From Arenibacter hampyeongensis (lineage in GTDB: Bacteria; Bacteroidota; Bacteroidia; Flavobacteriales; Flavobacteriaceae), in NCBI RefSeq assembly GCF_002909255.1, contig NZ_PIOB01000002.1, positions 62,001 to 126,000 of the forward strand: a stretch of 64,000 nucleotides of DNA, read 5' to 3'. Below, piece by piece: positions 17,043-46,981 of this stretch (position 1 is its first letter; every line of letters begins with the position of its first letter). The notes under the pieces were generated by a model, which searched no databases, had not been told where the DNA came from, and saw only the letters and a list, made by a program, of their open reading frames with translations. Made by a program: the position numbers and the translations under genes.

Positions 17043-19310
<2,268 letters not shown>

Positions 19311-26196: not shown

Positions 26197-27297
26197 TTAT
26201 TTATTTTTCCTTTTTAAAATAATAAAAAGTCCTAAGAGAAGAGCAATTGCCAAAAATATAATGGCATATGTTACAGTTTGTTCAATTTTAAGTTCACCAT
26301 CTTTTTCAACCTTGATTGGTTGGTGCATAATTTCAGGAATCTCATTGAACTCCTCGTCCAAATCCAAAACCAAGGGTTCGAAACTAACATTATTGGGATC
26401 TTTTGGCACTTTGTTCTCAATAGCCAGAATTCTACTCATTTCGGCCAAGATCATAGGATTATCCACATCAAAGCCCAAGTCATCACTTAAACCCTGCCTT
26501 ATGTTTTGAGGCCAATTTAAGGGTATTTGGTAACCCAGCATCCATTTTCTATCCAAACCGCATTCGCAATCTGCCCCAATAATGGACAGTAGTTTATATA
26601 TATGGTCATTTTTAATATCCTTCAGACCTATCTTTTCCCCCATGATTCTCCCGCGGCCATACACAATGAAGGCAATAGGTTCCTTGGGCGCTTGTTCTAT
26701 TCCCAAACTCCAGAGCAGTGACTTCTCTTCCTCAAAATTATTTTGGGAAATGACTTTCATATTGGGACCAATTTTAACCAACTTCGGCATATTGGGTATA
26801 ATATTATTTATACGTTCGCAAGCCTTGAGAATATGGTTCCTAGCAGCTGAATTATCCGCATCGTTATGCCCTTCTATTAATATTACAGAGGCATATATAT
26901 GTGGTAATTCTGCCAATAATTGGTTTTGTGTTGGTGAAAATAGTACCGATTTGCGCTCCAAGCCTTCTAGGTAGGGTGTGGACAAAACCAACATTCTTCC
27001 TTCGGGATCTACCAATATATAGGCTGGTAAGGGCAGATTGTTCTCTTCAACAAAATTTGTAACGGGATTTGAGGCATCTTCCTTAAGACTCAGACCCATG
27101 GGTTTTACATTGGATTCTGCAAAACCTTGAGCCTGCTGTTTCGGAAAAAGTCTGGAATTTTCATCCACCTTGTAAATCACATAAGTAACCTTGGACAAAG
27201 TAGAAAATCCTATTTCCCGAATGGTATACCTACAAGCTTGCGATGTAGTAACATACAGTGCAAAGAGGAACGCCAAAATTATTTTTAAATTTTGCAT
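26197..27297 (-). CDS. Membrane-anchored protein of unknown function, last gene of the mod-PQQ operon
   Basis: 366 residues. The N-terminal signal (IILAFLFALYVTTSQA) is followed at once by CRYTIREIGFSTL. A single C-terminal hydrophobic helix (about 345-362) before basic residues (KRKNK) would anchor it in the inner membrane with the bulk in the periplasm. Middle motifs include LPAYILVDPEGRMLVLSTP, which has a thioredoxin-like feel, and CECGLDRKWMLG, with two Cys. I do not recognise a family. It starts 5 nt after the stop of the propeller/PA14 gene, so is surely cotranscribed. It may tether or fold the large propeller protein. Confidence 0.75.
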   Translation of the reverse strand: MQNLKIILAFLFALYVTTSQACRYTIREIGFSTLSKVTYVIYKVDENSRLFPKQQAQGFAESNVKPMGLSLKEDASNPVTNFVEENNLPLPAYILVDPEGRMLVLSTPYLEGLERKSVLFSPTQNQLLAELPHIYASVILIEGHNDADNSAARNHILKACERINNIIPNMPKLVKIGPNMKVISQNNFEEEKSLLWSLGIEQAPKEPIAFIVYGRGRIMGEKIGLKDIKNDHIYKLLSIIGADCECGLDRKWMLGYQIPLNWPQNIRQGLSDDLGFDVDNPMILAEMSRILAIENKVPKDPNNVSFEPLVLDLDEEFNEIPEIMHQPIKVEKDGELKIEQTVTYAIIFLAIALLLGLFIILKRKNK

Positions 27298-27302
27298 CTA
27301 TA

Positions 27303-29957
27303 TTATTTAGAGTGGTACAATAGTTCTGCAGGGATGGCGGCATTTTTCATGTTGGGGCCTTGCAATTTCAAATTAATTCCCTGCGCTTCGTTCCCCACAA
27401 AATAATCGGCCATTAGTGCATGTAACCCCTTCTTTAATGGCACCACAACACTTTGATCCCCGGCCCCTGGTTTCGTCTCCAAAATATTTTCGTCTGATAA
27501 GTAAACTGTACTAAAGGCTGCCGCGGTGACATTGCTAAAAGTATACATGCCATCCGTTGGAATATTAATATATCCTTTAAACCTTAGTCCGTACATTTTG
27601 TCTTGATCGAATGTCGCAAGATCTATTTCATTGACCAAATCTGATTTCTTAGGAACCATTGCTCCTAAATCTGGAAGTTCATTTCCCGTTTTCCCATTGT
27701 TTTTATAATAATTCCGAATAATTCCAGGTATGGCATCAATATTTACGGCATCGATCAGCTCCGGGATAATTACCTCCAAACTATTTTCTTCACTTTTTAA
27801 TACTTCATTGCCCTCCTTCCAAAACGTTATGGCCCTTACCAAGGTATTATCTGAAATAGCAACAGGATTTCTGTATTTTGGGGAATTCAGGGATGGCGTT
27901 GTTCCATCGGTGGTAAAATGAATTTCACCTGAGTTGCCCTTTCTTTCCATGGAAAAACTCCACTTTCCGTTATTAAGCTCAGGAAGCGCAGTAATGGTTG
28001 GCTCAGGCCTTAACCTAGTAAAGTTTCTTGTCCTCACATAAGATGCTTCTCTTCCGCTTTTGTCAACATATATTATGGATTTTAAGGTAGTATTTTTATT
28101 TATTACAATAGGTTTCTTGTATTGAGTGGATCTTTTGGTAGGCTCACTTCCATCCAATGTATAGAATAGGGTATTAAAATTACCATCCTTAGTTTTTATG
28201 TTGATAGAAAGGGTATCCATAAATTCTTCATTCTCGTAGAGATACGTAATTGGGGCTCTTGATTTTGGTGCAAAAACCATGGAAGTTTCCAACCAATTAC
28301 CACAACTACAACCCCCGCCAGCTTCCGGCGAAAGTATCATCCCCTGAGCAGGTATGGTGCTTAACCAACAATCTGGTCGCAATCGCTCCCATTGTGTAAA
28401 CTTATCGGTATCAAAATTAAATTGGGTAACACTATAACCGCGGTAAAAGGCGGATTGTTCCGTTAGGGCATAAGAGGCACATCCGTGACCGGCCTTTGGC
28501 ACCTCCTGTTCCAGCAACTCTCCGGTATCCAATTTAAAAATACCCGGTTTTACGATTAATCTATTGCCTACAATGGCTGGCTTGGAAAAATGTGCCCCAT
28601 GATGGTTTGCTGGCCATTTTAGCTGATTTTCCCATACAAAATCGCCAGTTTTGGAATCATGGTTATAGATGTAATACATTCCCTCATAGGAGGAAACAAT
28701 AACAATCCTATCGCTACTTCCGGCCATAAAAAATGCCGCCAAACCTGGTTGTACCTGTAAGGGTTTTTCCCAATTTACCTTTCCTGTATCGGGGTTTAAG
28801 GAAACTAAAAACGTATTCTTGAAAATCTTTGGCCCTGCCCTGCCCTCATCCGATAATTTAAACCCAGAATTCCTGGATTCCACAAAACAAATCTGATTGT
28901 CCGTAATGGTGATCGTTGAATTGATGATATGGGATTTTGGTTTTTTATATTCCCATATATTATCGTTCCCATCCTTTTTCTTCGCAAACATGGAAAAACT
29001 AACCACTTGATGTGCCAAGGGTCCTGATTGCTTGTCATACCAACCTTCACCTCCATAATAATTGGTGTAGTTACTTCCCTTGGGAATGGAGGTGCCAATA
29101 ATGTTATCATTTAATAAACTAATATATCCCCAATCAGTCTCCATCAAATCAACATCTTCCGTCACAGGAACTATATTGGTCATATTTCCATTGCTATTAT
29201 TGATCTTTAGCAGGTTGCTTTGGTGGGCTATATATACATAATTGTCATCTGCAGACCAATTACTACAGTCCCTAATAATGTTCATTCTTGAAAGCCCAGG
29301 AATCTCCTTTGACCAAAAAACACTTCCATTATAGGCATCTACTGCTATAATCCGTTCCCTTCCCTGAACGAACATCTTGCCGTTTACCGCGAGTGGAGAT
29401 GGCTTTCTACCACTTCTATCTGTTTGGAATCTTGGTCCGGGACGACCCATCCATTGTATTTCAAAATCGTTCGTAGTGGTGGAGCCCCAAAGACTTTCAC
29501 CTCCAAAGGCACTATTATTCGGCAAACCATATTGATGGGACCATTCGCCGGTGGAGTCATGTGGCGCCTTACTTAAAACTTCCACTACTTCATTTTTTGT
29601 GTGGCTCACCTGCCAAATATTTTTTGCTGCTGCCAACCAATCCGCATATTGTACCTTTTCGCGCTTCAACACCCCATAACCTTTTGGTTTTATAAGGCGG
29701 ATTACTTCGTCTGCACTGCTTCGATCCGCTGTGTTGACTACAACAACATTGGCTACATCGGATGTAATTGGTAGTGCGTTATAGCTATCCGTATGCTGAA
29801 TGGTGATTTTGCCCCCATATAAGCCCGTACCCTGCCATGCCTCGCGCAGTTTTTTGACTTTATTCTCCGAGGTTTCAAATACGATAACCTTTAAGGGTGT
29901 ATGTTCTGCTATTTCAAAAGCAATGGCCTCATTATCCCCACCAAAAACCAACGCCAA
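27303..29957 (-). CDS. Methyltransferase-like / PQQ propeller / PA14 protein, part 2 after an in-frame TAG
   Basis: About 884 residues. Domains: a Rossmann/SAM-methyltransferase-like segment (about 1-105; FGGDNEAIAFEIA, then SDVANVVVVN), a PQQ-type beta-propeller (about 150-560; ERIIAVDAYNGSVFW, LVSLNPDTGKVNWEK), cysteines in GHGCASY and GGGCSCGNW, two chitobiase-like domains (about 600-725; YTLDGSEPTKRST, FTTDGTTPSLNS), and a PA14-like domain (about 785-875). There is no signal peptide and no ATG: the frame opens at TTG 29957, three codons after the TAG that ends the preceding gene, in the same frame. It looks like the C-terminal 60% of one exported protein of about 1,480 residues. See the finding. 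Confidence 0.75.
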   Translation of the reverse strand: MALVFGGDNEAIAFEIAEHTPLKVIVFETSENKVKKLREAWQGTGLYGGKITIQHTDSYNALPITSDVANVVVVNTADRSSADEVIRLIKPKGYGVLKREKVQYADWLAAAKNIWQVSHTKNEVVEVLSKAPHDSTGEWSHQYGLPNNSAFGGESLWGSTTTNDFEIQWMGRPGPRFQTDRSGRKPSPLAVNGKMFVQGRERIIAVDAYNGSVFWSKEIPGLSRMNIIRDCSNWSADDNYVYIAHQSNLLKINNSNGNMTNIVPVTEDVDLMETDWGYISLLNDNIIGTSIPKGSNYTNYYGGEGWYDKQSGPLAHQVVSFSMFAKKKDGNDNIWEYKKPKSHIINSTITITDNQICFVESRNSGFKLSDEGRAGPKIFKNTFLVSLNPDTGKVNWEKPLQVQPGLAAFFMAGSSDRIVIVSSYEGMYYIYNHDSKTGDFVWENQLKWPANHHGAHFSKPAIVGNRLIVKPGIFKLDTGELLEQEVPKAGHGCASYALTEQSAFYRGYSVTQFNFDTDKFTQWERLRPDCWLSTIPAQGMILSPEAGGGCSCGNWLETSMVFAPKSRAPITYLYENEEFMDTLSINIKTKDGNFNTLFYTLDGSEPTKRSTQYKKPIVINKNTTLKSIIYVDKSGREASYVRTRNFTRLRPEPTITALPELNNGKWSFSMERKGNSGEIHFTTDGTTPSLNSPKYRNPVAISDNTLVRAITFWKEGNEVLKSEENSLEVIIPELIDAVNIDAIPGIIRNYYKNNGKTGNELPDLGAMVPKKSDLVNEIDLATFDQDKMYGLRFKGYINIPTDGMYTFSNVTAAAFSTVYLSDENILETKPGAGDQSVVVPLKKGLHALMADYFVGNEAQGINLKLQGPNMKNAAIPAELLYHSK

Positions 29958-29966
29958 TCCTTTTTC

Positions 29967-31688
29967 CTAATTATTAAGATTTTTTATCTCCTTTAGAAAC
30001 TTACTTTCATTGGTCTCGTTATCATTTGTGTTTTCATTGTAGGTGAAGTTGAAAAAGTTATCAAATTCCAAGGCCTTGGTCTTCCCATCCCCTACCGATA
30101 ATTGATATTGATAGGTAAAATCTTTACGTATATCCTCAACAATAATCTTATGCTCCTTACTGGGTGAATCTTCTTTTATTACTCGACGACCATAATCATT
30201 TCCCCAATCCAAACTGGCAATTACAGGCTCTTCCGTAATAAAATGTACTTCCACCTTATTGGGCCCTAATATATTTACAAAGGGACCTGCTGCAAACTCC
30301 AAATTGCCATCCTCCAATTTTACCATTTCTTGTACTTCGTTGTCTATAACGGCCGGTTTGTCCTTATTCTCGGCATATAAACTATTGTCGCCCATATTGG
30401 GGGCAAACTTGTATATATGACCCTCCCCAGTAGAGGCAAACAAGGCGTTATTGGCAACTGCCAAAGCGTATACCGTTCCATCAACGGAAGCTTCCCATAA
30501 AGCATGCCCGTTTTTGGTGCTTACCGCATAAACCTTGTCCGTTCCTCCCACATATAGCATATCGCCAGAGATAATGATCCTATGTGCCAAATAATTTCTT
30601 TTGGACCATATTACTTTCTTGGCATTTCTATTGTAAGCCGAAATGGAATTATCCGTCAGGATATAACTTATACTATCTTTAACCACCATTTCTTTGCCGC
30701 CTTTAAAAGACATGAAATCGGCCTGCTTGGCATTTTGACCTTCATCTAAAATACGGTTATCCGCAAATGTTTCCATGATGCCCTTTTCCCTGGATGATTG
30801 GGGGTGTACTATATTTTTTTCAGGCGTTATTAGAACAAAACAACCACCGGTACCTGCGAGTTGACCATTACTTGCACCGGTTTGCTTGTTAAAGAACATA
30901 GGCGACACCCTGCCCTGAGGTTGTATAATTTTTGTCCCCGTGGAAGCCATAGCACCTTCCAAAGTAAGGTCTTGGTATTTTTGAACATAAGTACCTTCTT
31001 TGCCAATTTTCCCCGTTTTTATATCCACCGCACAGAAGTAAGAATCTTTCCACGGCAATAGGGAGGCGCCAAAATAGGCCACCTCATCTTCTACCAAAAC
31101 ACCAGTTCTTACAGGCCAAAAGGATATGAGGGAATTGTTGTTCATTACCTTTTCCTTAATGTCCTGGGAAGGCGAAAATTTCCACACCAATTTACCGTTG
31201 GAAGCTTTTATACAATATCCATAACCGTCATCGGACCCGAAATACAATTTTCCAGAATGAAAGGTAGGCGCTACTCGTATTGGTCCCCCAGTGGTAAAAG
31301 TCCAAAGTTCCTTGCCCGTAGCTACATCCAAACAATGAATGGCATCATCCGCGGTAGAACCATAATACAATTTATCGCCTACTATTATTGGATAATAGGA
31401 CAAATCATAGTCCCTCATAGAGGGCAATGGACCACTATTGGCGTAGGTATCTTCCTTGGCAGGGCCGTACCAGGCCGGTACGGGCATTTGAGCCGCCGTA
31501 TATACCCAATCCTCACCTAAAGTAGCTGCATCCAATTGCACGGAAGAATTACCACTTCGGTAATTGTCCTTTTTAAATTGAGGCCAATCCTGTGGTGTGC
31601 TTTGCTGTTCTGCACAACTGTGGAAAATGATTATTGCAAGGAGTGGCAACAAGGCATTCTTCAAACTGCTTTTTATGGATATTTTCAT
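29967..31688 (-). CDS. PQQ-like beta-propeller lipoprotein, part 1
   Basis: About 573 residues from the ATG at 31688; a start at 31754 would overlap the ATPase gene and bury the signal. SPII signal ends IIFHSC (lipid Cys). The propeller (about 40-450) has repeated blades: YYGSTADDAIHCLDVATG, LYFGSDDGYGYCIKASNG, YVGGTDKVYAVSTKNGHALW and ALFASTGEGHIYKFAPN. The end (about 470-560) resembles an Ig/purple-acid-phosphatase N-terminal fold. The gene stops at TAG 29967-29969 after KNLNN, but the same frame continues open for 887 codons. PQQ-type propellers often bind no PQQ and act as protein-interaction scaffolds. Located in the envelope. Confidence 0.85.
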   Translation of the reverse strand: MKISIKSSLKNALLPLLAIIIFHSCAEQQSTPQDWPQFKKDNYRSGNSSVQLDAATLGEDWVYTAAQMPVPAWYGPAKEDTYANSGPLPSMRDYDLSYYPIIVGDKLYYGSTADDAIHCLDVATGKELWTFTTGGPIRVAPTFHSGKLYFGSDDGYGYCIKASNGKLVWKFSPSQDIKEKVMNNNSLISFWPVRTGVLVEDEVAYFGASLLPWKDSYFCAVDIKTGKIGKEGTYVQKYQDLTLEGAMASTGTKIIQPQGRVSPMFFNKQTGASNGQLAGTGGCFVLITPEKNIVHPQSSREKGIMETFADNRILDEGQNAKQADFMSFKGGKEMVVKDSISYILTDNSISAYNRNAKKVIWSKRNYLAHRIIISGDMLYVGGTDKVYAVSTKNGHALWEASVDGTVYALAVANNALFASTGEGHIYKFAPNMGDNSLYAENKDKPAVIDNEVQEMVKLEDGNLEFAAGPFVNILGPNKVEVHFITEEPVIASLDWGNDYGRRVIKEDSPSKEHKIIVEDIRKDFTYQYQLSVGDGKTKALEFDNFFNFTYNENTNDNETNESKFLKEIKNLNN

Positions 31689-31701
31689 GATTGCGGTATA
31701 T

Positions 31702-32364
31702 CTATGATTTATTTTTAATTTTTCCCTTATGTAGATTAACGGTTCTAGTGGCATAACTATCGGCTAAATTTCCATGGGTCACCATAACTACCGTTCCTCC
31801 ATTATCCTGAAACTTTTTTAGGTAGTGTAAAACCTCGACCGTATTTTTTTCATCCAAATTTCCAGTGGGCTCATCGGCCAAAATTATGGATGGCTTTGTA
31901 ATCATTGCCCTTACCAAGGCAACCCGCTGTTTTTCGCCAGCACTCAATTCGGAGGGTTTATGGTAGAGACGGTCCTTTATTCCCAGTTCCTCCGCAATTA
32001 GTATCACCTCTTCCTTGCTTATTGCAATATTGTCCAGTTTGTTCAATAACAAGATGTTGTCCATTGCGTTGAGATAGGGCAACAAATGGTATGACTGGAA
32101 TACAAAACCTATTTCCTTGGCTCGATAAATTGCACGTTCTTTTTCCGATAGCGAAAAGAGATCACGCTTGTTTACCACAATTCCTCCGGAGCTAGGTTTC
32201 AGCATACCGCCCAAAACAAACAAAAGGGTAGATTTACCACTGCCACTTTCGCCCTTCACCAAAACAAATTCCGAGATAGCAATAGTAAGGTCTATTGAAT
32301 CCAATGCCGTAACCTGATTTTGGCCTGCCGTATAGGATTTGGTAATTTTTTGAATAGATATCAT
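31702..32364 (-). CDS. ABC transporter ATPase, MacB/LolD type
   Basis: 220 residues. Walker A GESGSGKST, Q-loop VFQSYHLLPYL, signature LSAGEKQR, Walker B SIILADEP followed by TGNLDE, and switch His in VVMVTHG identify the LolD/MacB/FtsE subgroup. That group powers mechanotransmission at the envelope, not import. 1 nt downstream of the permease stop and 13 nt before the propeller lipoprotein ATG. Together with the permease it may release or fold lipoproteins such as the propeller protein. Confidence 0.93.
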   Translation of the reverse strand: MISIQKITKSYTAGQNQVTALDSIDLTIAISEFVLVKGESGSGKSTLLFVLGGMLKPSSGGIVVNKRDLFSLSEKERAIYRAKEIGFVFQSYHLLPYLNAMDNILLLNKLDNIAISKEEVILIAEELGIKDRLYHKPSELSAGEKQRVALVRAMITKPSIILADEPTGNLDEKNTVEVLHYLKKFQDNGGTVVMVTHGNLADSYATRTVNLHKGKIKNKS

Positions 32365-32365
32365 T

Positions 32366-33502
32366 TTAGTGCTCGTTTAATAATTTGGCTGAATCCTGGT
32401 TTACCGCCCAAACAATTGGCAACATCGAAGCCAACACTGCAAACAAAGGTCCCAATAGTACGGCTAGGTATAGCAAATTAAACACAGGATCAACAGCTAC
32501 CATAGTAACATTAAAAATTTTTGGTCCCAAGTTCATGGAGACCAAGGTACCTAGGGCGAATCCTAAAACAGATCCAACTACCCCTATTACAATTGCCCTT
32601 TGTAAAAATAGACTACTTATTTTCCAGGCTGAAAAGCCCAATGCCCGCATAATTCCAATTTCATGGGTCCTGTCCTTAACGTTCCCCATGGCCACAGACC
32701 CCAACCATATCGCACAGATAATCAATATAATGGGAAATAAAAGGGCGAAGTATTTGTCTGTCATTTTTCTTTGGTTCTCACGGGCATCCGCAATCGTGGA
32801 ATTCATGATCACTTTGGCCTCAGGGGCTATTTTGGCCAGCTCCTTTCTCAATTCGGTCAAGGGGTCCCCATTTTTCGTGGAACACATACAGTTCAATGCC
32901 ATTACTTCATTGACCCGCCCCTTCATATTTGTCAAATCCTGTAAAGTTGCCAAATCGAAATAGACCCTAATATCATCCTCGCTTCCAACTTCTGAAAGCG
33001 TTTTTATAACTTCAAATTCCTTATCAAAAAAAGTGATGGTTTCCCCCTCCGCTAGGTTAAACTGCTGTGCCAATTCATACCCTAAATATACTTTCCCCGG
33101 TGGGATGGCAAATATCATTTTGGACTTGTTGGAACCCATAGGTTCCCGCTCTTCCTTGGAAATTCCTGATAAAATAATTTCTTTATCCCTCCAATGTATC
33201 CGTTTGTGCAAGGTGGCCGTGAGATGCGAATAATTCACCGATTTTTGTTCGATCATTTTGTCCACCACTTTCTCCGACATGGTTAGATCGGAATAGCCTT
33301 GTAGCCAAAATTGATTCATATCCGATGCCACTGGAATTATTCGCACATTGAACCCCATATTCCGAGTGAGCAACCTAGTCTCATCTTGGGTGGCTTTGGT
33401 TATAGTATAAAAAGCTACTACCAGGGCCACAATGGTTATCATTGCCAACAAGCCCATTAAAAAATTGAATTTTCTATGTATTATCTCTTTAAATACCAAC
33501 AT
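32366..33502 (-). CDS. FtsX/MacB-family ABC permease
   Basis: About 378 residues from ATG 33502; the frame extends to a TTG at 33532 that would overlap the ThiF gene. Topology: one N-terminal helix (about 16-38, LMGLLAMITIVALVVAFY), a periplasmic domain (about 40-250), then three helices at the C-terminus (LLFPIILIICAIWLGSVAM; VIGVVGSVLGFALGTLVS; LYLAVLLGPLFAVLASMLP). This is the four-helix FtsX/LolCE/MacB layout. The block HEIGIMRALGFSAWKI is the ATPase coupling helix. The periplasmic loop has CMCS, an unusual Cys pair. No linked efflux partner such as MacA or TolC is present. Confidence 0.9.
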   Translation of the reverse strand: MLVFKEIIHRKFNFLMGLLAMITIVALVVAFYTITKATQDETRLLTRNMGFNVRIIPVASDMNQFWLQGYSDLTMSEKVVDKMIEQKSVNYSHLTATLHKRIHWRDKEIILSGISKEEREPMGSNKSKMIFAIPPGKVYLGYELAQQFNLAEGETITFFDKEFEVIKTLSEVGSEDDIRVYFDLATLQDLTNMKGRVNEVMALNCMCSTKNGDPLTELRKELAKIAPEAKVIMNSTIADARENQRKMTDKYFALLFPIILIICAIWLGSVAMGNVKDRTHEIGIMRALGFSAWKISSLFLQRAIVIGVVGSVLGFALGTLVSMNLGPKIFNVTMVAVDPVFNLLYLAVLLGPLFAVLASMLPIVWAVNQDSAKLLNEH

Positions 33503-33507
33503 AATTT

Positions 33508-34260
33508 TTAGCTTACTTGTTGCTCCTGACAAATTTCACACCCTTTTCTTGTTTGAATATTTATGGTATTGAAGGTCATAGTTCTTAAATCCATTGTCAA
33601 TAGCCTATTCTTTAAGGCTTCCCCAAAACCTGATATTAATTTAATGGCCTCCATAGCCCCTAAACAGGCTACCGTACCAGAGACAGCCCCGAATACGGGA
33701 AACCTTCGTTGCCAAGCCGCAGGTTGGGCAGGATACAAACAGGACAGGCATGCAGTTTCTCCGGGAACGATGGTAGTAATTTGAGCTTCCAGCTCATACA
33801 TGGCACAATCCACCAATGGTTTCCCCTGCCGAACTGCCTCCCTATTCATTAAAAACCGCTCTTCAAAAAGTGGCGCCCCATCAACAACTACATCGGCCAT
33901 GCCCACTAAATTGGCTACGTTGTCCTCATTAATATTCTCAGGAACGCCGATAATATTTATATTGGGGTTCAACTCCCTCAACCTTCTTTCAACCGATTCA
34001 ATACGTGGTTTTCCCAACCAATCATGTGTCATTAGTAATTGCCTGTTAAGATCGCTGGGTTTTACGTTCCCAGCGTGAGCCAACACAAGAGTGCCAACTC
34101 CCGCAGCTGCCAGTTCATAGGCCACTACACTGCCCAACCCCCCGCATCTGGAAACCAGCACAGTACTATTCTTTAATCTTTCCTGTCCTTCCTTACCATG
34201 CCCAGGGACATCCAATTGCCATTCGTAAATAGACAGCTCTTCCTTTGTCAGTTTTTCCAT
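33508..34260 (-). CDS. E1-like ThiF/MoeB/HesA adenylyltransferase, divergent
   Basis: 250 residues. MoeB and ThiF adenylate the C-terminal Gly of a partner ubiquitin-like protein. The nucleotide loop is VLVSRCGGLGSVVAYELAAAG. The Arg finger region 'PSDLNRQLL' is kept, but the usual Asp-rich 'L.D.D.V' segment before it is AHAGNV, so the ATP-ribose contacts differ. The later Asp is present (VVDGAP), followed by LFEERF where most have D-N-x-x-T-R. Two Cys pairs (CLSC and CEIC near the C-terminus) probably bind zinc. No rhodanese domain. It directly abuts the MoaD-like gene (stop at 34261, start at 34260), which should be its partner. Confidence 0.88.
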   Translation of the reverse strand: MEKLTKEELSIYEWQLDVPGHGKEGQERLKNSTVLVSRCGGLGSVVAYELAAAGVGTLVLAHAGNVKPSDLNRQLLMTHDWLGKPRIESVERRLRELNPNINIIGVPENINEDNVANLVGMADVVVDGAPLFEERFLMNREAVRQGKPLVDCAMYELEAQITTIVPGETACLSCLYPAQPAAWQRRFPVFGAVSGTVACLGAMEAIKLISGFGEALKNRLLTMDLRTMTFNTINIQTRKGCEICQEQQVS

Positions 34261-34545
34261 CTATCCTCCTGCTATTGGTGACATTAACATTAATTCATCA
34301 CCCTGGTTCAAAGGAGTATTATCGTCATAGTTCACCTGTATTTGATTCACTGCAATAAGGTTGAAATTCCTGTAGCTCCCATCGGCATTGAACAATGTTG
34401 ATGTAATCCCCGGCCCATAGCGCTTAGAGATTTTTTGCAAAACAACTTGGACATGTTCATCATCATCAATTGAAATAGTATCCACATCCACGCCGGTATG
34501 TGTTTTTATTTGCGCCGTAAAACGTAATTTTATTTCCTTCTTCAT
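34261..34545 (-). CDS. MoaD/ThiS-like ubiquitin-fold sulfur carrier
   Basis: 94 residues, a beta-grasp protein ending in MLMSPIAGG. The free C-terminal Gly-Gly is what E1-like enzymes adenylate and later convert to a thiocarboxylate. Start strand KLRFTAQIKTHTGVDVDTI and a conserved tail LNQGDELMLMSPIAGG fit MoaD. It is somewhat longer than typical MoaD or ThiS (about 65-85). Lies between modC (1 nt gap) and the E1-like gene (no gap), so translational coupling is likely. Similar MoaD-E1 pairs accompany tungsten aldehyde oxidoreductases in other bacteria, but no such enzyme is encoded here. Confidence 0.9.
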   Translation of the reverse strand: MKKEIKLRFTAQIKTHTGVDVDTISIDDDEHVQVVLQKISKRYGPGITSTLFNADGSYRNFNLIAVNQIQVNYDDNTPLNQGDELMLMSPIAGG

Positions 34546-34546
34546 C

Positions 34547-35197
34547 TTATTTTTTTTTACTTACTTCAAGTAGTTTTCCCTTTTCCAATCTCAATACCCT
34601 GTTGGCCAATTTACTGGCTTCCAATTGGGAATGCGAGACGTGCAAAACGGTAATCTTAAGTTTGTCTTTTAGTTTTATCAATAAATTATACATATCCTCC
34701 TTGGTGTTTTCATCCAAAGCGCTCAAGGGTTCATCCAAGCATAAAATATGTGGGTAATAGCTCAATGCCCTTCCCAGGGCGACGCGCTGTCTTTCTCCCC
34801 CACTTAGATTATGCGCCCCACGCTTCAACAAATGATCTATACCCAACATAACGGCCAGCTCGGTTACGCGTTGATCGATTTGAGTTTTGTTCCACTTTCT
34901 AATTTTTAAGGCAAACCCAATATTTTCTGCAATGGTCATGTTCTTAAACAAAGCTCCATCCTGCGGTACATAACCAATTCCACGCAGCCCAGGTACCAGG
35001 TCGGTTATATTAATCCCATTTAACCAAATTTCCCCTTGCTGTATTTTTCGCAATCCACAAATTGCTTCCAATATGGTAGACTTGCCACACCCAGTTTTGC
35101 CCATGAGTACTACATATTCCCCCTTTTCAATTTTAAAATTGACATTGGATAGTTCAAAACTTCCTTGTTCAATATATAAGTCCTTACAATGTATCAT
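34547..35197 (-). CDS. modC: Molybdate/tungstate-type ABC importer ATPase
   Basis: 216 residues. Walker A GKTGCGKST, Q-loop YVPQDGALF, signature LSGGERQR, Walker B HILCLDEP, switch His TVLHVSH. The sequence and size match short ModC/TupC/WtpC-type ATPases: the C-terminal TOBE regulatory domain found in E. coli ModC is absent, so substrate feedback at the ATPase is not expected. Starts directly after the modB stop. Confidence 0.85.
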   Translation of the reverse strand: MIHCKDLYIEQGSFELSNVNFKIEKGEYVVLMGKTGCGKSTILEAICGLRKIQQGEIWLNGINITDLVPGLRGIGYVPQDGALFKNMTIAENIGFALKIRKWNKTQIDQRVTELAVMLGIDHLLKRGAHNLSGGERQRVALGRALSYYPHILCLDEPLSALDENTKEDMYNLLIKLKDKLKITVLHVSHSQLEASKLANRVLRLEKGKLLEVSKKK

Positions 35198-35971
35198 TTA
35201 CAGAGCTGTTGTTTTGTCCCCAAACATTCTAACCACCATTAAAACGGCAAAACCTGCAGCTATCATAATCAATGACACTGCCACTGCGGCTTCAATATTT
35301 CCTACGGACATTTCCAAAAAAACCGTTGTCGGCAATACCTCGGTACGCATCCTGGTAGCTCCTGAAAAAATCAATATTGGACCAAATTCTCCCAATGCCC
35401 TCGCCCATGCCAAGGAAGCAGCCGTTAAAATCCCATTTTTGGCCTGGGGCAATAGAATATGAATAAAAGACTGTTGCTGATTACATCCCAATGTCAGCGC
35501 TACCTGTTCCTGTCTGTTGTTTATTTGCATAAAGGTTACGTGCATGGTCCTTACCGCAAAAGCACAGGCAACCATGAACTGTGCAATTACAATACTATAA
35601 ACGGTATAGGTAATTCTTAAGTGACTCTCAATAAATTGACCTGGTGCCGTCTGAAACAAAATGAGTAAGCTTAAACCAATGACCAAAGGAGGCAATACAA
35701 TGGGGATATCCAGAACCGCATCGAGAAATTTTTTCAAACGAAACTCGAATCTTGCCATAAAATACCCTATGGGAATTGCGACCACTACACTTAAGACCAT
35801 GGTAATCGTACAGGTAATCAAGCTTAACTTTATGGCATATTGAATTTCCCTACTGGCCAGGGCTTCCCAGATATGACCTGGGCTTGTATAGGAAAAATCC
35901 GCTACCATCATGGCCAAAATCAAAATGATATAGGTTGATCCAATGACCCCCATGACCAAGTAAAAAGGCAC
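35198..35971 (-). CDS. modB: Molybdate/tungstate-type ABC permease
   Basis: 257 residues with about six hydrophobic segments (for example YIILILAMMVADF, LSLITCTITMVLSVVVAIPIGYFMA, VLDIPIVLPPLVIGLSLLILF, AVAVSLIMIAAGFAVLMVVRM). The EAA-type coupling loop is RQEQVALTLGCNQQQSFIHI followed by LPQAK; ASLAWARALGEFGPILIF is the conserved ModB/CysT helix. The start is GTG 35971 as the frame has no ATG just upstream, but the frame is open for about 21 more codons, so the true start could be further up. 59 nt after the binding-protein gene. Confidence 0.85.
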   Translation of the reverse strand: MPFYLVMGVIGSTYIILILAMMVADFSYTSPGHIWEALASREIQYAIKLSLITCTITMVLSVVVAIPIGYFMARFEFRLKKFLDAVLDIPIVLPPLVIGLSLLILFQTAPGQFIESHLRITYTVYSIVIAQFMVACAFAVRTMHVTFMQINNRQEQVALTLGCNQQQSFIHILLPQAKNGILTAASLAWARALGEFGPILIFSGATRMRTEVLPTTVFLEMSVGNIEAAVAVSLIMIAAGFAVLMVVRMFGDKTTAL

Positions 35972-36030
35972 ATTGGACCTTAGCTTTAATTCCTTGTTAT
36001 GTACATTTAAACTTTCGATATTATGCTGAT

Positions 36031-37494
36031 CTAAATTTTATCAAATTCCCAATGAAAGCCATTTTTCAAGTATTGCTCTCTTGATGCTGTACTGGTAATG
36101 GACTTAAGCAAGCGTTTAAGTAAATACTGATGGTTGGAATTCACCGATATCCCAAAGTTCTGTAAGGCACTGGCTTCTTTTTCGGTAAGCTCTACCATAT
36201 CCAATTTGTCCCTAACTTGAGCAATATTGGCTTCATAAACAACTACCGCATCCAAAGATCCCGTACGGATCTGGTTCACCAATAAATCGGCCGTCGGGGT
36301 CTGAGATCTAACATTTTTATACACATCTTCCCAAAGCCCTTGACTTTCCAAAAGTTTTTTCGTCAAAGCTCCCAAAGCGCTCTGATCGTGGTTACAGACA
36401 CCAAGTTGCAGATCCTTCTGGGTCAAATCCTTTAAATTTCCAATTTTTTTAGGATTCCCTTTTTTAGTGGCGATTACAATTTTAGTATTGGAAATATCCG
36501 TTATGTCCGTGAACTTAGTCTCTACTTGAGTCATAAACGAAACATCGCAGGACAGATAGGCATCCGGACGTTGACCGGCCTTAATCTGTGAAACCAAAAT
36601 ACCACAACCGTTATATACTCGGTCCACTTTTACCCCTTCACGTTGTTCAAAAGCATTGATGGTCTGATCTACGGCCACTCGGTTCACCCCTCCACTATAA
36701 AACAACAAACGTGGGTTTTCGTCCCACAAATCACCCTCTATTGGACGGTAGCCCATGTCTTTAAACGCTATTAATCCCATATCACTTGCGGAAAGGTAAC
36801 GCATAAATTTTAAGGCTTCTGTCGGTTGCTGAGAGGACTTTAGCACTCCTATGGTTATGCTTTTATCATATTTGGAAAATTCTTCATTTTCAATAATGTC
36901 AATTTCACCGTATTGATTGGCCGTTGCGTCCCAAATTATACCCACATCTGCCGTTCCCAATTTAAGTGTATTGGCCACTTCGTTAACAGTGGGCATCTGT
37001 ACCAGTAAATTACTTTGTAGGGAATCCCAATGTCCTAATCCTGTAAATATCTTTTTTGTTAAACGCCCTATAGAGGCAGCGTCAGGATTGGCAATGGCCA
37101 CTTTTATATTCTTATTAAAAAGGTCCTCGATTTTTGAGATTCCTTTAGGATTTCCTTTGGCAACGGCAATTACAGGTTGCATATGAGCCAGTGCTTGTGT
37201 TTCTTGAACCAAACCAAAATTAATGGCCTCATCTATATAACTTCTGTCCCCAGCAATATAGAGGTCTCCTTGTTTTGCCACACGTAGATTGGAAAGTAAG
37301 GTACCGGAACCTCCATATTGCAAATCTACCCGCACACCATACTGCTTATAGTATTCCTGGGCAACCTTTTCTACCACAGGTTTTATCCCAGCTGCGCAAT
37401 ACAATAAAATAGAAGTATCACTTTTTTTTGAAGTGCAGCCAAGCAAACCTAATATAATAACCCAAACTAGCCCGAAATGTATTCTTAAGCCCAT
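36031..37494 (-). CDS. modA: Tandem-duplicated ModA-like substrate-binding lipoprotein
   Basis: 487 residues, about twice the normal 230-260. SPII signal ends LLGC (lipid Cys 20). Two homologous solute-binding modules follow. Module 1 (about 27-262): ILLYCAAGIKPVVEKVAQEY, QYGGSGTLLSNLRVAKQGDLYIAGD, VIAVAKGNPKGI, GTADVGIIWDA. Module 2 (about 267-487): LLFYSGGVNRVAVDQTINAF, VYNGCGILVSQIKAGQRPDAYLSCD, IVIATKKGNPKKI, GSLDAVVVYEA. The second has Gly-Cys-Gly where the first has GSG, so the two sites may bind different oxyanions or metal forms. First gene of the operon. Such fused ModA modules are unusual. Confidence 0.9.
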   Translation of the reverse strand: MGLRIHFGLVWVIILGLLGCTSKKSDTSILLYCAAGIKPVVEKVAQEYYKQYGVRVDLQYGGSGTLLSNLRVAKQGDLYIAGDRSYIDEAINFGLVQETQALAHMQPVIAVAKGNPKGISKIEDLFNKNIKVAIANPDAASIGRLTKKIFTGLGHWDSLQSNLLVQMPTVNEVANTLKLGTADVGIIWDATANQYGEIDIIENEEFSKYDKSITIGVLKSSQQPTEALKFMRYLSASDMGLIAFKDMGYRPIEGDLWDENPRLLFYSGGVNRVAVDQTINAFEQREGVKVDRVYNGCGILVSQIKAGQRPDAYLSCDVSFMTQVETKFTDITDISNTKIVIATKKGNPKKIGNLKDLTQKDLQLGVCNHDQSALGALTKKLLESQGLWEDVYKNVRSQTPTADLLVNQIRTGSLDAVVVYEANIAQVRDKLDMVELTEKEASALQNFGISVNSNHQYLLKRLLKSITSTASREQYLKNGFHWEFDKI

Positions 37495-38175: not shown

Positions 38176-39843
38176 ATGTCACCATCTGTTATAGCATTTT
38201 TGGCGGTCGTTCCCATCTTAACGGCCGCAATTCTTTTGGTAGGATTTAGAACCCCAGCTAAAATAGCCATGCCCATTTCCTTTTTGGTCACTGTGTTTGT
38301 TGCCTTTGCAGCTTGGGACATTGCCATCATCGATATTGTGGCCTCCAGTATCCAAGGGTTGTTCATCACCTTTGACATTCTGTATATTGTATTTGGGGCT
38401 ATTATCCTCCTGAACCTGCTTAAATATTCAACCGCACTCCGGGCAATTCGCAAAGGTTTTGCCGATATATCTGAGGATCGCAGGGTACAGGTCGTTATCA
38501 TTGCTTGGTTGTTCGGTTCCTTTATCGAAGGGGCCGCCGGCTTTGGAACACCCGCTGCAATTGTGGCACCCCTATTGGTAGGGATGGGATTTCCAGCATT
38601 TTGTGCGGTAATGTTGGGCATGATGGTACAGAGTACTGCGGTATCCTTTGGAGCAGTGGGTACGCCCATATTGGTTGGTGTAAGTGGGGGTATCCAAAGT
38701 CCCGAATTCACTGCCGAGCTGGCTGCATCCGGTCTTCAACTTTCAGATTACATACAGATGGTAACCTCCGAAGTAGTGGTCCTTCACGGAATCACCGGCA
38801 CGCTTATGCCCACGCTCATGGTCTGCATGATGACCCGCTTTTTTGGAAAGAACAAGTCTTGGAAAGAAGGGCTTCAGATTCTACCCTTTACCATTTTCGG
38901 GGGACTTGCATTTACAGTGCCCTATGTGCTTACAGGCCTATTTTTGGGACCCGAATTTCCTTCTATGCTCGGTGCATTGGTAGCCATACCCATAGTGGTA
39001 TTCGCAGCAAAACGCGGTTTCTTGGTGCCTAAGAAAACCTGGGACTTCGACAAGGAAAAGAATTGGCCTTCCGTTTGGTTCGGTACCTTGAACGTAAAAT
39101 TGAACAGCGATAAAGAAGAAAAAAGAATGTCCTTGGTCAAGGCATGGTTACCTTATATTATTATGGCTGCCTTGTTGGTACTTTCCCGACTTCCACAACT
39201 CCCTTTAAAGGCGTGGCTTACGGATATCAAGATAGCTTGGACCGGGATATTGGGTACCTCCATATCAGCATCCAGTAGCCCACTCTATTTACCCGGCACC
39301 ATTTTACTCTTGGCGGGAATCATTACCATCTGGCTACATAAAATGAAATCTGGCAAGGTCAGGATTGCCTTTAAGGACAGTGCAAAAATGTTGTTGGGTG
39401 CAGGGTTTGTACTCATTTTCACCGTTCCGATGGTCCGCATCTATATCAATTCTGGCTTAAACCCATCCAGACTTCCCGGAATGCCTATTGCCATGGCAGA
39501 ATGGGTGGCCAGTAACGTGGGCGATATATACCCTATGTTCGCTCCTTCAATAGGTGCTTTGGGAGCCTTTATTGCAGGTAGTAATACTGTAAGCAACCTA
39601 ATGTTCACCTTGTTCCAATATGGAGTCGCCGTAAAACTGGCGATGCCCTCTTTTATTGTAGTCGCACTCCAAGCCACGGGTGCAGCGGCCGGCAATATGA
39701 TCGCTATCCATAACGTTGTGGCCGCTTCGGCTACCGTAGGTTTCCTAGGTAAGGAAGGCCTGGTACTTAGAAAGACCATACTGCCGACCCTATATTATTT
39801 GTTTGTAGTGGGTATTTTAGGTTTAATCTTTATTTTCTATTAA
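38176..39843 (+). CDS. lldP: L-lactate/glycolate permease family transporter
   Basis: 555 residues with about 12-14 hydrophobic segments, typical of the lactate permease (LctP) family, which includes L-lactate (LldP) and glycolate (GlcA) importers. Diagnostic blocks: SFIEGAAGFGTPAAIVAPLLVG, MMVQSTAVSFGAVGTPILVG and APSIGALGAFIAGSNTVSNLMF. A conserved C-terminal block is VAASATVGFLGKEGLVLRKT. First gene of a three-gene run with a fused FAD/Fe-S oxidase (10-nt gap) and an aminotransferase. The third gene suggests that the acid imported is glycolate as much as lactate. Confidence 0.9.
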   Translation: MSPSVIAFLAVVPILTAAILLVGFRTPAKIAMPISFLVTVFVAFAAWDIAIIDIVASSIQGLFITFDILYIVFGAIILLNLLKYSTALRAIRKGFADISEDRRVQVVIIAWLFGSFIEGAAGFGTPAAIVAPLLVGMGFPAFCAVMLGMMVQSTAVSFGAVGTPILVGVSGGIQSPEFTAELAASGLQLSDYIQMVTSEVVVLHGITGTLMPTLMVCMMTRFFGKNKSWKEGLQILPFTIFGGLAFTVPYVLTGLFLGPEFPSMLGALVAIPIVVFAAKRGFLVPKKTWDFDKEKNWPSVWFGTLNVKLNSDKEEKRMSLVKAWLPYIIMAALLVLSRLPQLPLKAWLTDIKIAWTGILGTSISASSSPLYLPGTILLLAGIITIWLHKMKSGKVRIAFKDSAKMLLGAGFVLIFTVPMVRIYINSGLNPSRLPGMPIAMAEWVASNVGDIYPMFAPSIGALGAFIAGSNTVSNLMFTLFQYGVAVKLAMPSFIVVALQATGAAAGNMIAIHNVVAASATVGFLGKEGLVLRKTILPTLYYLFVVGILGLIFIFY

Positions 39844-39853
39844 TTCTATAATT

Positions 39854-42721
39854 ATGAAAAACATATTTGATGTCCTAGGGAATTCAATCAAAGGCGAAGT
39901 GCTAACGGACAACTACACCTTGGGCATGTATGCCACTGACGCCAGCATCTACCAGATTAAACCGCTAGCAGTTGTTTTGCCAAAGGATTCAGAGGATGCA
40001 AAAAAAGCCGTTGCCGTGGCATATGAAAACAAAATAACGATACTTCCCAGAGGCGCCGGCACCAGTCTGGCAGGGCAAACGGTTGGGGAATCCATGATAT
40101 TGGATTTTTCAAAACACATGAACAGCTTGTTGGAAATAAACGAAGCTGAAAAATGGGTACGGGTACAACCGGGCATGGTCAGGGACGATCTAAACGAGGT
40201 CTTAAAGCCCTATGGCCTGCATTTTGCCCCAGATCCCGCAACCAGTAGTAGAGCAAACGTAGGGGGAATGGTCGGCAACAATTCTTCAGGAACCAAAAGT
40301 ATATTATATGGTAAAACCGTAGACCATGTTCTTGAAGCTTCCGTGCTCTTGGTAGATGGCACCCAATTGCAGCTAAAGAACTGTCCATCAATGGAATATT
40401 CAGAAAAGGCCTCGCAAACGGATAGGGAAGGTGAAATTTATGCCTCCTTTAAAAAACTGATACATACCCATTCCGAAGAGATTAAAGAACGTTTTCCTAA
40501 AGTAATGCGCAGGGTCGGTGGCTATAATTTGGATGAATTCGTGTATACCGACCAATGGAATTTGGGCAAATTGATCTGTGGCAGCGAAGGCACATTGGCA
40601 ACTACCTTGGAGCTAAAACTAAATTTAACGGATCTGCCCAAACACAAATCTGTCTGTGTGGTACACTTTACGGAAGTCCTGGAGGCCATTTCGGCAGTGG
40701 AATCCATGTTGCCCTATGCTCCTTCGGCCATTGAAATTTTGGACCAGACCGTAGTGGACCTCAGTAGGCAAAATTTAACCACAAAGCATCATAGTCACTT
40801 TATAGAAGGGAATCCCGGGGCCATATTGATCGTAGAATTTTATGGGGACACCATGGAAGATGTTATGGACAGGCCGAAGCGTATGATCGCCCAATTAAAG
40901 AACCATGGCGTTGGATATGCCTACCCTCTTTTTCCGGAAGGGCAGGCCTATGAAGATGTATGGGTCATCCGCAAAAAGGGATTGGGACTCATGTTGGGCA
41001 TTAAAGGAAATAAAAAACCGTTGGCCTTTATTGAGGATGCCGGAATCCCATCCGAACACCTGGCCGAATATATAACCCAAGTTTTGAAGGTTTGCGAAAA
41101 ACATGGCACAAAGGCAGCGATGTACGCCCATGCCAGTGTGGGCGTAATCCACGTACGCCCCATATTGGACCTAAGACTGGCCGAAGACATTGAGCGATTA
41201 AAGGCCATTACGGAGGATACATTTGAACTCGTAATGAAATACAAGGGATCTTGGAGCGGAGAGCATGGCGATGGTCTTGTACGAAGTGCCTATAACAAAC
41301 GCTTCTTCGGAGATATCTTGTACGGCGCCTTTTTGGAAATAAAAAAACTTTTCGACCCCGATAATCTGATGAACCCCGGGAAAATTGTCGAGGCACAGTC
41401 CATAGAGCACAATTTGCGCTACGGTACGGGGTATAAAGATCTGCACGTAAAAACCGAATATCAGTATAAGTCCGAAGAAGGTTTTGCTGCCTCGGTACAT
41501 ATGTGCACCGGGGTTGGGGAATGCCGAAAAATACTGGGTGGGACCATGTGTCCCAGTTTTAAGGCCACACGGGAAGAGGAACATTCCACCCGTGGCAGGG
41601 CCAATGCACTAAGAATGGCCATGTCCAATCAATTCGGATTGGAGGGACTTGCGAGCAAACGCCTGCATGAGGTCATGGATCTCTGCTTATCCTGTAAGGC
41701 CTGTAAATCCGAATGCCCCAGTAATGTGGATATGGCCAAAATGAAAAGCGATTCCCTTCAAATGTACTATGATGAACATGGTATCACCTTTAGGGATAAA
41801 TTGATCCGCGGATCGGCAAAAGCAGCTGCGAATATCTCTGGTTGGAAGGCCGGTTTGGTAAACAGCATTCAAAAGAGTGTCCTATTCCGATCGCTTTTGG
41901 AGCGTACCGCAAAATTCGACAAACGCAGGAGCTTGCCCGATTTTGCAAAAGAACCTTTTTATAAATGGTTCGAAAAAAATGCCAAAAAAACGAATACAGG
42001 CAATAAAAAGGTGGTGCTGTTCGCCGATACCTATCTTAATTATCACGAACCACATATTGGGATTTCAGCTTTGGAATTATTAAATTCCTGCGGATATGAA
42101 GTCATTTTGGCCAATGTAGGCTGCTGCCAAAGACCAAAAATATCCCATGGATTTTTAAGGGATGCGAAAAAAGAGGGGGCCAAAACCATAGAAGGCTTAA
42201 AGCCATTTCTGGATCAAGGCCTAAAAGTGGTGGTTTGCGAACCCAGTTGTGCTTCCGCATTAAACGATGACCTACTAGATTTAATTGCTGACCAGGACAT
42301 AGCCGATCAATTAAAGAATGGCGTAATGATGATCGACGTTTTTTTAGCCGACGAATACGAAAAGGGTCATTTGGAGGTCCATTTCGAATCCGTTTCGGAA
42401 GGTGTTGCCATTCACGGACATTGTCATCAAAAAGCGCTGTACGGCACAAATGCTATGAAAGCCTTATTAAAGAATTCCAGGCATGTTTCCGAGATTCCAT
42501 CGGGTTGTTGCGGAATGGCGGGTTCCTTCGGCTATGAAAAGGAGCACTACGATTTATCCAAAAAGATTGGAGATGAAATTCTGTTCCCGGCAGTAGAAAA
42601 ATTGCAAAAAGACCATAAAGTAGTGGCCTGTGGATTCAGCTGCCGCCACCAGATTCAACATTTCACAAGTACCAGGCCAATACATTTTGTTGAAGCCATT
42701 AGAGCCGTGAAGAAAAACTGA
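39854..42721 (+). CDS. Fused FAD-binding/Fe-S 2-hydroxy-acid oxidase (GlcD-GlcF / Dld type)
   Basis: 955 residues. N-terminal FAD_binding_4 domain (about 35-245; ILPRGAGTSLAGQTVG and NVGGMVGNNSSGTKS) and FAD-oxidase C domain (about 250-520; WSGEHGDGLVRS). Then a ferredoxin-like part (about 545-625; CTGVGECRKILGGTMC and CLSCKACKSECPSN). The C-terminal part (about 710-940) has two CCG-type motifs (VGCCQRPKISHG, SGCCGMAGSFGYEKEH) that bind non-cubane Fe-S clusters. It oxidises a D-2-hydroxy acid such as D-lactate or glycolate and passes electrons to quinones. Combines in one chain what E. coli splits into GlcD and GlcF. Confidence 0.93.
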   Translation: MKNIFDVLGNSIKGEVLTDNYTLGMYATDASIYQIKPLAVVLPKDSEDAKKAVAVAYENKITILPRGAGTSLAGQTVGESMILDFSKHMNSLLEINEAEKWVRVQPGMVRDDLNEVLKPYGLHFAPDPATSSRANVGGMVGNNSSGTKSILYGKTVDHVLEASVLLVDGTQLQLKNCPSMEYSEKASQTDREGEIYASFKKLIHTHSEEIKERFPKVMRRVGGYNLDEFVYTDQWNLGKLICGSEGTLATTLELKLNLTDLPKHKSVCVVHFTEVLEAISAVESMLPYAPSAIEILDQTVVDLSRQNLTTKHHSHFIEGNPGAILIVEFYGDTMEDVMDRPKRMIAQLKNHGVGYAYPLFPEGQAYEDVWVIRKKGLGLMLGIKGNKKPLAFIEDAGIPSEHLAEYITQVLKVCEKHGTKAAMYAHASVGVIHVRPILDLRLAEDIERLKAITEDTFELVMKYKGSWSGEHGDGLVRSAYNKRFFGDILYGAFLEIKKLFDPDNLMNPGKIVEAQSIEHNLRYGTGYKDLHVKTEYQYKSEEGFAASVHMCTGVGECRKILGGTMCPSFKATREEEHSTRGRANALRMAMSNQFGLEGLASKRLHEVMDLCLSCKACKSECPSNVDMAKMKSDSLQMYYDEHGITFRDKLIRGSAKAAANISGWKAGLVNSIQKSVLFRSLLERTAKFDKRRSLPDFAKEPFYKWFEKNAKKTNTGNKKVVLFADTYLNYHEPHIGISALELLNSCGYEVILANVGCCQRPKISHGFLRDAKKEGAKTIEGLKPFLDQGLKVVVCEPSCASALNDDLLDLIADQDIADQLKNGVMMIDVFLADEYEKGHLEVHFESVSEGVAIHGHCHQKALYGTNAMKALLKNSRHVSEIPSGCCGMAGSFGYEKEHYDLSKKIGDEILFPAVEKLQKDHKVVACGFSCRHQIQHFTSTRPIHFVEAIRAVKKN

Positions 42722-42769
42722 AATATTTTAAATATAATTATATAACCATCCATATAAAAAATTACAATA

Positions 42770-46853: not shown

Positions 46854-46981
46854 ATTCAACAACCGCTTTTTATCATCATATGGACTTTTTAATACGTCTA
46901 GCCTTGATTTCCCACTTGGGGCAAATCCATTCTATTGGATACTAATGAATGGTCATTTTAAAAAGCACCCTTTTGGCCAAA

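Follow-up and report, generated by a model that had tools for sequence, protein, structure and literature searches.

A rare Flavobacteriaceae operon joining a Mod-type importer, a MoaD/HesA-like E1 pair, an FtsX-type ABC pair and a giant two-propeller lipoprotein

What task could bring together a molybdate-type importer, a MoaD-type carrier with its E1 enzyme, an FtsX-type ATP-binding cassette (ABC) pair and a giant propeller lipoprotein? This question is raised by an operon in a 64,000-nucleotide (nt) stretch of the Arenibacter hampyeongensis genome (assembly GCF_002909255.1, contig NZ_PIOB01000002.1, positions 62,001 to 126,000), here called the window. We found these genes in near-constant order at four loci and rarely among the searched genomes, with an E1 that shows affinity to HesA, with conserved cysteines in several of the proteins, and with separate molybdenum (Mo) cofactor genes elsewhere. 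The operon looks like a real, not yet described unit. Tentatively, and with less than even confidence, we propose that it is a dedicated supply line for an oxyanion of the Mo or tungsten (W) type and for sulfur, which, together with an envelope ABC pump, serves a two-propeller lipoprotein outside the cytoplasm.

The operon comprises ten co-directional open reading frames (ORFs) in one tight run from 37494 to 26197 on the minus strand, to which all operon coordinates below refer, and each ORF was recovered where the initial annotation had placed it. In 5' to 3' order these encode a tandem ModA lipoprotein, ModB, ModC, MoaD/ThiS, E1, an FtsX/MacB permease, a LolD/MacB ATPase, two propeller ORFs and a protein of 366 amino acids (aa). 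Intergenic distances of the listed ORFs were 59, 0, 1, 0, -25, 1, -53, 9 and 5 nt. Starts favoured by the relatives described below (33502 for FtsX and 31688 for the propeller) turn both overlaps into gaps of about 5 and 13 nt, and the recomputed distances match the gaps of 0 to 13 nt, and once 59 nt, given by the initial annotation. Its gene identities were likewise borne out by Pfam and NCBIfam matches (SBP_bac_11/TIGR01256, BPD_transp_1, ABC_tran twice, ThiS, ThiF, FtsX with MacB_PCD, and PQQ_2). Upstream, the operon is bordered by an LctP gene at 38176 on the opposite strand, 681 nt away, and downstream the next same-strand gene lies 259 nt beyond it. Its base composition showed no sign of recent foreign origin.

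A search for the same gene order in other Bacteroidota had been suggested at the outset, and nearly the same order was indeed present in three further Flavobacteriaceae genomes. Six short peptide patterns from the 366-aa protein, which distant or differently built relatives may escape, were searched for in the contigs of 84,980 species. Among the 25 stretches that matched, three encoded relatives, all from Flavobacteriaceae: an uncultured Flaviramulus (locus L020), Snuella sedimenti (L021) and a Flavobacteriaceae metagenome-assembled genome (L022). The genome of the window is referred to as G000 and those of the three relatives as G553, G554 and G555; L020 and L022 belong to genomes that are metagenome-assembled or uncultured, where the absence of a gene counts for less. 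L020 showed all operon parts in the order of the window, and L021 showed the same order with an aminotransferase gene inserted 2 nt after the tandem ModA gene and before ModB. Protein identity between the window and the relatives ranged from 44% (MoaD) to 88% (ModB).

Outside these loci the operon was not encountered. The 366-aa protein was not found in 148 other genomes of the family, in 394 other genomes in a phylum draw or, searched as a profile, in 394 other genomes in a class draw; a profile of the Rossmann-type domain plus second propeller found no match at E 1e-6 in 394 other genomes. These phylum, class and propeller draws overlap, each includes the window's genome, and all were confined to its own phylum (Bacteroidota, inferred from kin). 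Within the genus some E1 was encoded in 18 of 18 genomes, with the operon-type E1 only in that of the window and the others matching at about 35% identity or less. Since nearly the same order is kept at all four known loci, the genes behave as one unit, which is far more certain than the chemistry proposed here, and the recurrence of this order in three other genomes indicates more than chance. The combination had been called undescribed, and no paper describing it turned up in the open-licence literature.

The most unusual point of the operon is the company of a HesA-like E1, a MoaD of its own and a Mod-type importer in genomes where nitrogenase was not detected. The MoaD/ThiS-type carrier (34261..34545) ends in Gly-Gly and matched ThiS (E 2.6e-7), and the E1 (33508..34260; ThiF E 7e-54) carries no rhodanese domain. 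In two relatives the E1 was 84% identical and the MoaD 44-46% identical, so the carrier diverges much faster than the enzyme between these loci. The top three plasmid matches of the E1 were cyanobacterial proteins annotated as HesA/MoeB/ThiF (46-47% identity, 99% covered), two of them encoded on plasmids of Nostoc and the third on a plasmid of Pseudanabaena. For two of the three the surroundings were read: one Nostoc gene (C052) has nif and mod genes within 15 kb, and the Pseudanabaena gene is located in a nif cluster. In a tree of 15 rows the three operon E1s and three cyanobacterial HesA proteins formed one clade (support 100/100), apart from the MoeB-like E1s of their own genomes, other MoeB and ThiF. 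This tree has few rows, some flagged long branches and no AOR-linked E1, as the opened regions around aldehyde oxidoreductase (AOR) genes annotated none; a tree of nine rows agreed on the HesA grouping. The initial annotation had named a ThiF/MoeB enzyme paired with MoaD/ThiS. The ThiS and ThiF assignments stood, and judged by its sequence and tree position the operon E1 is HesA-like and not of the MoeB type found in the same genomes.

HesA has been studied in nitrogen fixation. In the sections of a Paenibacillus study concerned with the mutant (PMC6361004), loss of hesA abolished almost all nitrogenase activity and left nitrate reductase intact; the defect was partly rescued by high molybdate or cystine and incompletely by E. 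coli moeB, and the authors tie HesA to the entry of sulfur and Mo into FeMo-co. Nitrogenase (PF00148) was detected in none of the four operon genomes and in 4 of 14 control genomes.

Under the proposed reading, the tandem ModA-like lipoprotein and ModBC would import an oxyanion of the molybdate/tungstate kind. The HesA-like E1 would charge MoaD, which might offer thiocarboxylate sulfur to the metal or its assembly factor, a step that we liken to the supposed help of HesA with sulfur and Mo entering the nitrogenase cofactor. The FtsX/LolD-type ABC pair may then carry sulfur, a reductant or a finished unit across the inner membrane to its putative recipients, the cysteine-bearing anchored 366-aa protein and the giant two-propeller lipoprotein, of which the propeller protein would be the working product. 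Four elements of this reading are what we infer: which substrate is carried, that sulfur is transferred, which way the FtsX pump works and that the propeller is the client. We favour this reading because a near-constant order is seen at four loci, the E1 groups with HesA, MoaD and MoeB-like E1 genes exist separately, and canonical modABC genes are encoded in G000 and G555; also because neither nitrogenase nor AOR turned up in the four genomes as an explanation of the set, two of the four FtsX matches whose surroundings were opened lie in metal clusters, and four of the proteins have invariant cysteines. The "metal- or sulfur-dependent envelope process" suggested by the initial annotation was a fair inference, and the AOR link and the pyrroloquinoline quinone (PQQ) label that came with it lacked support.

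How far could ordinary Mo uptake account for the operon? The tandem ModA-type binding lipoprotein (36031..37494) has two SBP domains (SBP_bac_11 E 5e-86 over two stretches) and scored 116.3 bits with the curated ModA model TIGR01256, above the cut-off of 62.5; homologues were found in all four genomes. We take the molybdate ligands of E. coli ModA to be Ser12, Ser39, Ala125, Val152 and Tyr170. In an alignment to this protein the predicted site at Ser39 was occupied by Ser in domain 1 and by Cys297 in domain 2, and Cys297, Cys316, Cys367 and His369 of domain 2 were invariant in the three aligned rows (the L021 protein was left out). The ModB-type permease (35198..35971; BPD_transp_1) is divergent from canonical ModB and 85-88% identical to those of the three relatives. 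The ModC-type ATPase (34547..35197; ABC_tran) had the tungstate model WtpC as its top NCBIfam match, at 222 bits and thus below the cut-off of 440.

We consider it rather doubtful, though worth weighing first, that the operon serves plain molybdate/tungstate uptake with an extra MoaD/E1 for the usual Mo-cofactor, in which case the propeller and FtsX genes would form an envelope addition with a use of their own. The ModA score above cut-off speaks for this explanation, which is strongest where canonical ModB is missing: G553 and G554 have MoaA and no canonical ModB, and genes that read as Nap- and Fdh-type adjoin their Mo-cofactor regions. However, a ModB above the curated cut-off was found in 17 of the 21 genomes examined, including G000 and G555, both of which encode a canonical modA-mop-modB-modC row (gene names by reading). 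The FtsX, propeller and anchored-protein genes moreover accompany the Mod genes at all four loci, and the HesA affinity of the operon E1 also speaks against plain uptake.

The ordinary cofactor genes tell against it as well. MoaA was found in all four genomes (11 of 14 control genomes were positive), and in the window's own genome MoaA and a Mo-cofactor cluster lie outside the window. By reading, the Mo-cofactor regions of G000, G553 and G554 encode a short MoaD-like protein ending in Gly-Gly and a MoeB-like protein of 360 aa; the names used for these regions (rhodanese tail, IorA/IorB, Nap, Fdh) come from sequence reading and not from a family search. We rejected the operon MoaD/E1 as the pair of the Mo-cofactor cluster, given these other MoaD- and MoeB-like genes in the three genomes examined. 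We read the operon as an extra set and not the Mo-cofactor set, with the missing canonical ModB of G553 and G554 speaking against this for those two. Because the Mo-cofactor genes of G000, in region L027 (G000:C23:420000-439900), adjoin what reads as an IorA/IorB-type oxidoreductase pair, the window's genome probably uses the ordinary Mo-cofactor.

Within the window, no Mo or W enzyme was recognised by eye among ORFs of at least 150 aa, in agreement with the initial annotation. The link it drew to tungsten AOR did not hold: AOR (PF01314) was found in 0 of 4 operon genomes, with 5 of 14 controls positive, and the operon MoaD showed no close similarity to either of the AOR-linked MoaD proteins compared, two in number. 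The passages of Iyer et al. 2006 (PMC1779556) on MoaD/E1 neighbourhoods list AOR, siderophore and sulfur-assimilation types and not the present one; tungsten cofactor genes are treated in part of PMC13197769.

The FtsX/MacB-type permease (32366..33532, start probably 33502; FtsX, MacB_PCD) carries a Cys-Met-Cys motif invariant in the four-row alignment, and its partner (31702..32364; ABC_tran) is an ATPase of the LolD/FtsE/MacB type. Neither reached the cut-offs of the LolCDE/MacB exporters, with 196.5 bits against 307.75 for LolD (the best model of the ATPase), 52.3 against 362.45 for lolCE and 28.1 against 966 for the MacB permease, and the labels "exporter" and, for the propeller, "surface" in the initial annotation went beyond the evidence. 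At E 1e-3 the permease matched 36 plasmid records, the lowest E value (3e-14) being that of Pelobacter propionicus, and for 4 of the 36 the gene surroundings were read. The Pelobacter match lies beside genes for DUF2318, heavy-metal-domain proteins and a P-type ATPase, and an E. coli match lies within a row of FTR1, iron transporter, Fe-S protein, permease, FtsX, ATPase and TlpA. One alignment, but not a wider one, placed a cysteine of the Cys-Met-Cys opposite a Cys in the FtsX of Pelobacter, and the motif was absent from the two E. coli permeases. The Pelobacter set (plasmid pPRO1, L063:8473-10803), in which FtsX permease and ATPase genes neighbour those for DUF2318 and heavy-metal proteins, hints at a wider metal-linked FtsX family.

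These neighbourhoods raise an explanation that we regard as unlikely, namely Fet-like acquisition or reduction of iron or copper, in which FtsX and its ATPase would hand reductant on to the anchored protein, with the altered domain 2 of the tandem ModA carrying a soft metal. Besides the DUF2318, heavy-metal and FTR1 contexts, the Cys and His residues of that domain and the Cys-Met-Cys of FtsX fit such a role. The Fet model, as far as its predicted mechanism is set out in PMC10783030, holds that FetBCD and FetA probably supply the reducing power, which the thioredoxins FetE and FetF pass on; P19 clusters are covered in sections of PMC8238504. On the other hand, no FTR1, P19 or DUF2318 was among the Pfam matches of the operon, a single FtsX gene is present instead of two, no CXXC was seen in the anchored protein, the E. 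coli permeases show low identity and lack the Cys-Met-Cys, and MoaD/E1 would be left unexplained.

The largest product of the operon is the propeller lipoprotein. The initial annotation listed it as split, and two ORFs with PQQ_2 matches were confirmed; they are, however, one gene cut by a single in-frame TAG (29967..29969), where 3 of 3 relatives have no stop and encode single ORFs of 1472, 1460 and 1448 aa. The N-terminal part (29967..31754, start probably 31688; PQQ_2 E 3e-20) comprises a lipobox, by reading, and the first propeller. The C-terminal part (27303..29957), described from Pfam, AlphaFold and Foldseek, comprises a Rossmann-type domain, a second propeller with a GCSCGNW motif, CHB_HEX_C_1 domains and a weak PA14 match (18 bits, under the cut-off of 24). 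In the AlphaFold model the start of this half is predicted to be the Rossmann-type domain and not propeller (residues 1-130, pLDDT 54-85 per ten-residue block). The second propeller holds five invariant cysteines, two of them within GCSCGNW. Identity to the intact copies was 63-66% for the N-terminal and 54-59% for the C-terminal half, so neither half looks decayed; the TAG may be a recent mutation, an error of sequencing or, as TTG start codons follow closely, a functional split. The PQQ label was not supported, as no PQQ-dependent dehydrogenase model reached its cut-off (TIGR03075, 28.7 against 480.05 bits; TIGR04528, 31.6 and 33.4 against 650). In Foldseek the second half matched generic propellers (E 1e-8 to 2e-11, 12-16% identity), among them BT2095, a B12-binding surface propeller lipoprotein.

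The BT2095 match is one of two hints that the propeller lipoprotein might capture an organic or phosphonate-like solute for import by ModABC, which we consider improbable. The other hint is a gene of the PbfA family inside the L021 operon and 0.8 kb from the L020 operon. The L020 gene passes the cut-off of the PbfA model NF049939 (712 against 525 bits) but also that of the general model PRK06082 (725 against 467), and it lies by PurU, electron transfer flavoprotein (ETF) and sarcosine-oxidase-like genes. Furthermore, no such aminotransferase gene is present in the run of the window or of L022, the run contains no TonB receptor or phosphonate lyase, and the Foldseek matches are generic propellers. 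That separate modules became adjacent by chance with no common task, as the missing MoaD/E1 in L022 and the aminotransferase inserted in L021 might suggest, is very hard to reconcile with nearly the same order at four loci, proteins 44-88% identical and gaps of a few bases.

The last gene of the operon encodes the 366-aa protein (26197..27297), which has N- and C-terminal hydrophobic helices, was found at the four loci only and gave no credible Pfam or NCBIfam match and no sequence match in PDB. Cys22, Cys160, Cys244 and Cys246 were invariant in its four-row alignment, in which no CXXC motif was seen. A structure model, for which a thioredoxin-like fold was asked, scored low (pLDDT 49). The invariant cysteines of ModA domain 2, FtsX, the second propeller and this protein fit a role in metal or sulfur handling, which such residues do not prove.

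Several findings weigh against the proposed supply line for a Mo/W-type oxyanion and sulfur. At L022 both MoaD and E1 are missing, with ModC ending at 3821 and FtsX starting at 3834, which means that the sulfur step can be dispensed with or that other genes provide it. All three operon E1 copies have Arg in place of the first Gly of the nucleotide motif (Arg-Cys-Gly-Gly-Leu-Gly against Gly-X-Gly-Gly-Leu-Gly in the HesA/MoeB rows), which makes E1 activity uncertain, and the operon MoaD scored 47.2 bits with TIGR01687, slightly under the cut-off of 49.5. The operon ModB lies below its curated cut-offs (TIGR02141, 159.7 against 182.6 bits; TIGR01581, 205.8 against 210.3), as it does in all four genomes. 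Among the 21 genomes examined, G553, G554 and two congeners had no ModB over the canonical cut-off, and in G553 and G554 the importer may simply feed the ordinary Mo-cofactor. The operon FtsX shares just 16-21% identity with the permeases of metal clusters in Pelobacter and E. coli, and its Bdellovibrio and Halorubrum matches showed no metal context. Finally, the propeller gene of the window is interrupted by a stop.

A bolder version of the proposed supply line, which we think unlikely, is that the operon builds a Mo- or W-sulfur centre placed neither on a pterin nor in nitrogenase: HesA/MoaD would sulfurate the oxyanion in the cytosol, the FtsX-type pump would pass it out, and the propeller lipoprotein would carry the cofactor. 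If true, biology would have one more way of using Mo/W, served by a separate extracytoplasmic assembly line. The role of HesA in nitrogenase assembly is loosely defined, and the operon offers a small system in which two questions can be put: is it a metal, and not a pterin, that HesA/MoaD sulfurates, and does Mo or W serve outside the cytoplasm in a novel cofactor? The proposed supply line would also give a task to the giant propeller protein and to the 366-aa family, for which relatives are not known.

Some neighbouring genes are recorded here for completeness. Beside the operon, at 38176-43882 on the plus strand, the window encodes a co-directional set of an LctP-family permease, a 955-aa fused GlcD/Fe-S type oxidase and a class V aminotransferase scoring below the PhnW and BhcA cut-offs. 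The genes at 17055-19310 and 44967-46862 read as a catalase-peroxidase and a di-haem cytochrome c peroxidase-like protein (names by sequence reading). The aminotransferase-fold gene of L020 (L020:11920-13260) lies on the opposite strand downstream of the operon, and by eye it is homologous to the one within the Snuella sedimenti operon (L079:6390-7724).

How does the operon compare with known systems? With HesA of nif clusters its E1 shares the E1 fold, the lack of a rhodanese domain, two CxxC pairs and the 46-47% identity, and differs in the pairing with its own MoaD and envelope genes, in the Arg of the nucleotide motif and in genomes without detected nitrogenase. With the tungsten AOR clusters that contain MoaD/MoeB, as portrayed in the relevant passages of PMC1779556, the operon shares the joint presence of MoaD and E1 and a sporadic distribution, but its genomes have no detected AOR and its MoaD lacks close similarity to the two AOR-linked ones. 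The order of binding protein, permease and ATPase and the ModA score resemble a ModABC importer, whereas the tandem binding protein, whose domain 2 has Cys where Ser39 would be, the ModB below cut-off and the canonical set in two of the four genomes set it apart. The Fet and Nos systems serve as working analogies, and the operon appears to belong to neither. The Fet cluster (fetMP-fetABCDEF), in the part of PMC10783030 that describes it, likewise combines an FtsX-type permease and an ATPase with neighbouring envelope redox genes, whereas the operon has one FtsX gene and no CXXC thioredoxin, and no FTR1, P19 or DUF2318 was among the Pfam matches of its ten ORFs. With BamB, tetrathionate hydrolase and quinoprotein propellers the second half of the lipoprotein shares the propeller fold, but at 12-16% identity, with two propellers and a Rossmann-type domain between them, and with no PQQ-enzyme or BamB model over its cut-off. 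The ABC type of NosDFYL presumably differs from that of the operon, and NosZ is, we assume, itself a propeller. No gene homologous to NosDFYL-NosZ was among the family matches of the operon; the likeness lies in the design, as the ABC pair NosFY together with NosD is needed to form the CuZ centre of N2O reductase, according to the account of this step in PMC7558416, and so helps to build a metal-sulfur centre in an extracytoplasmic enzyme.

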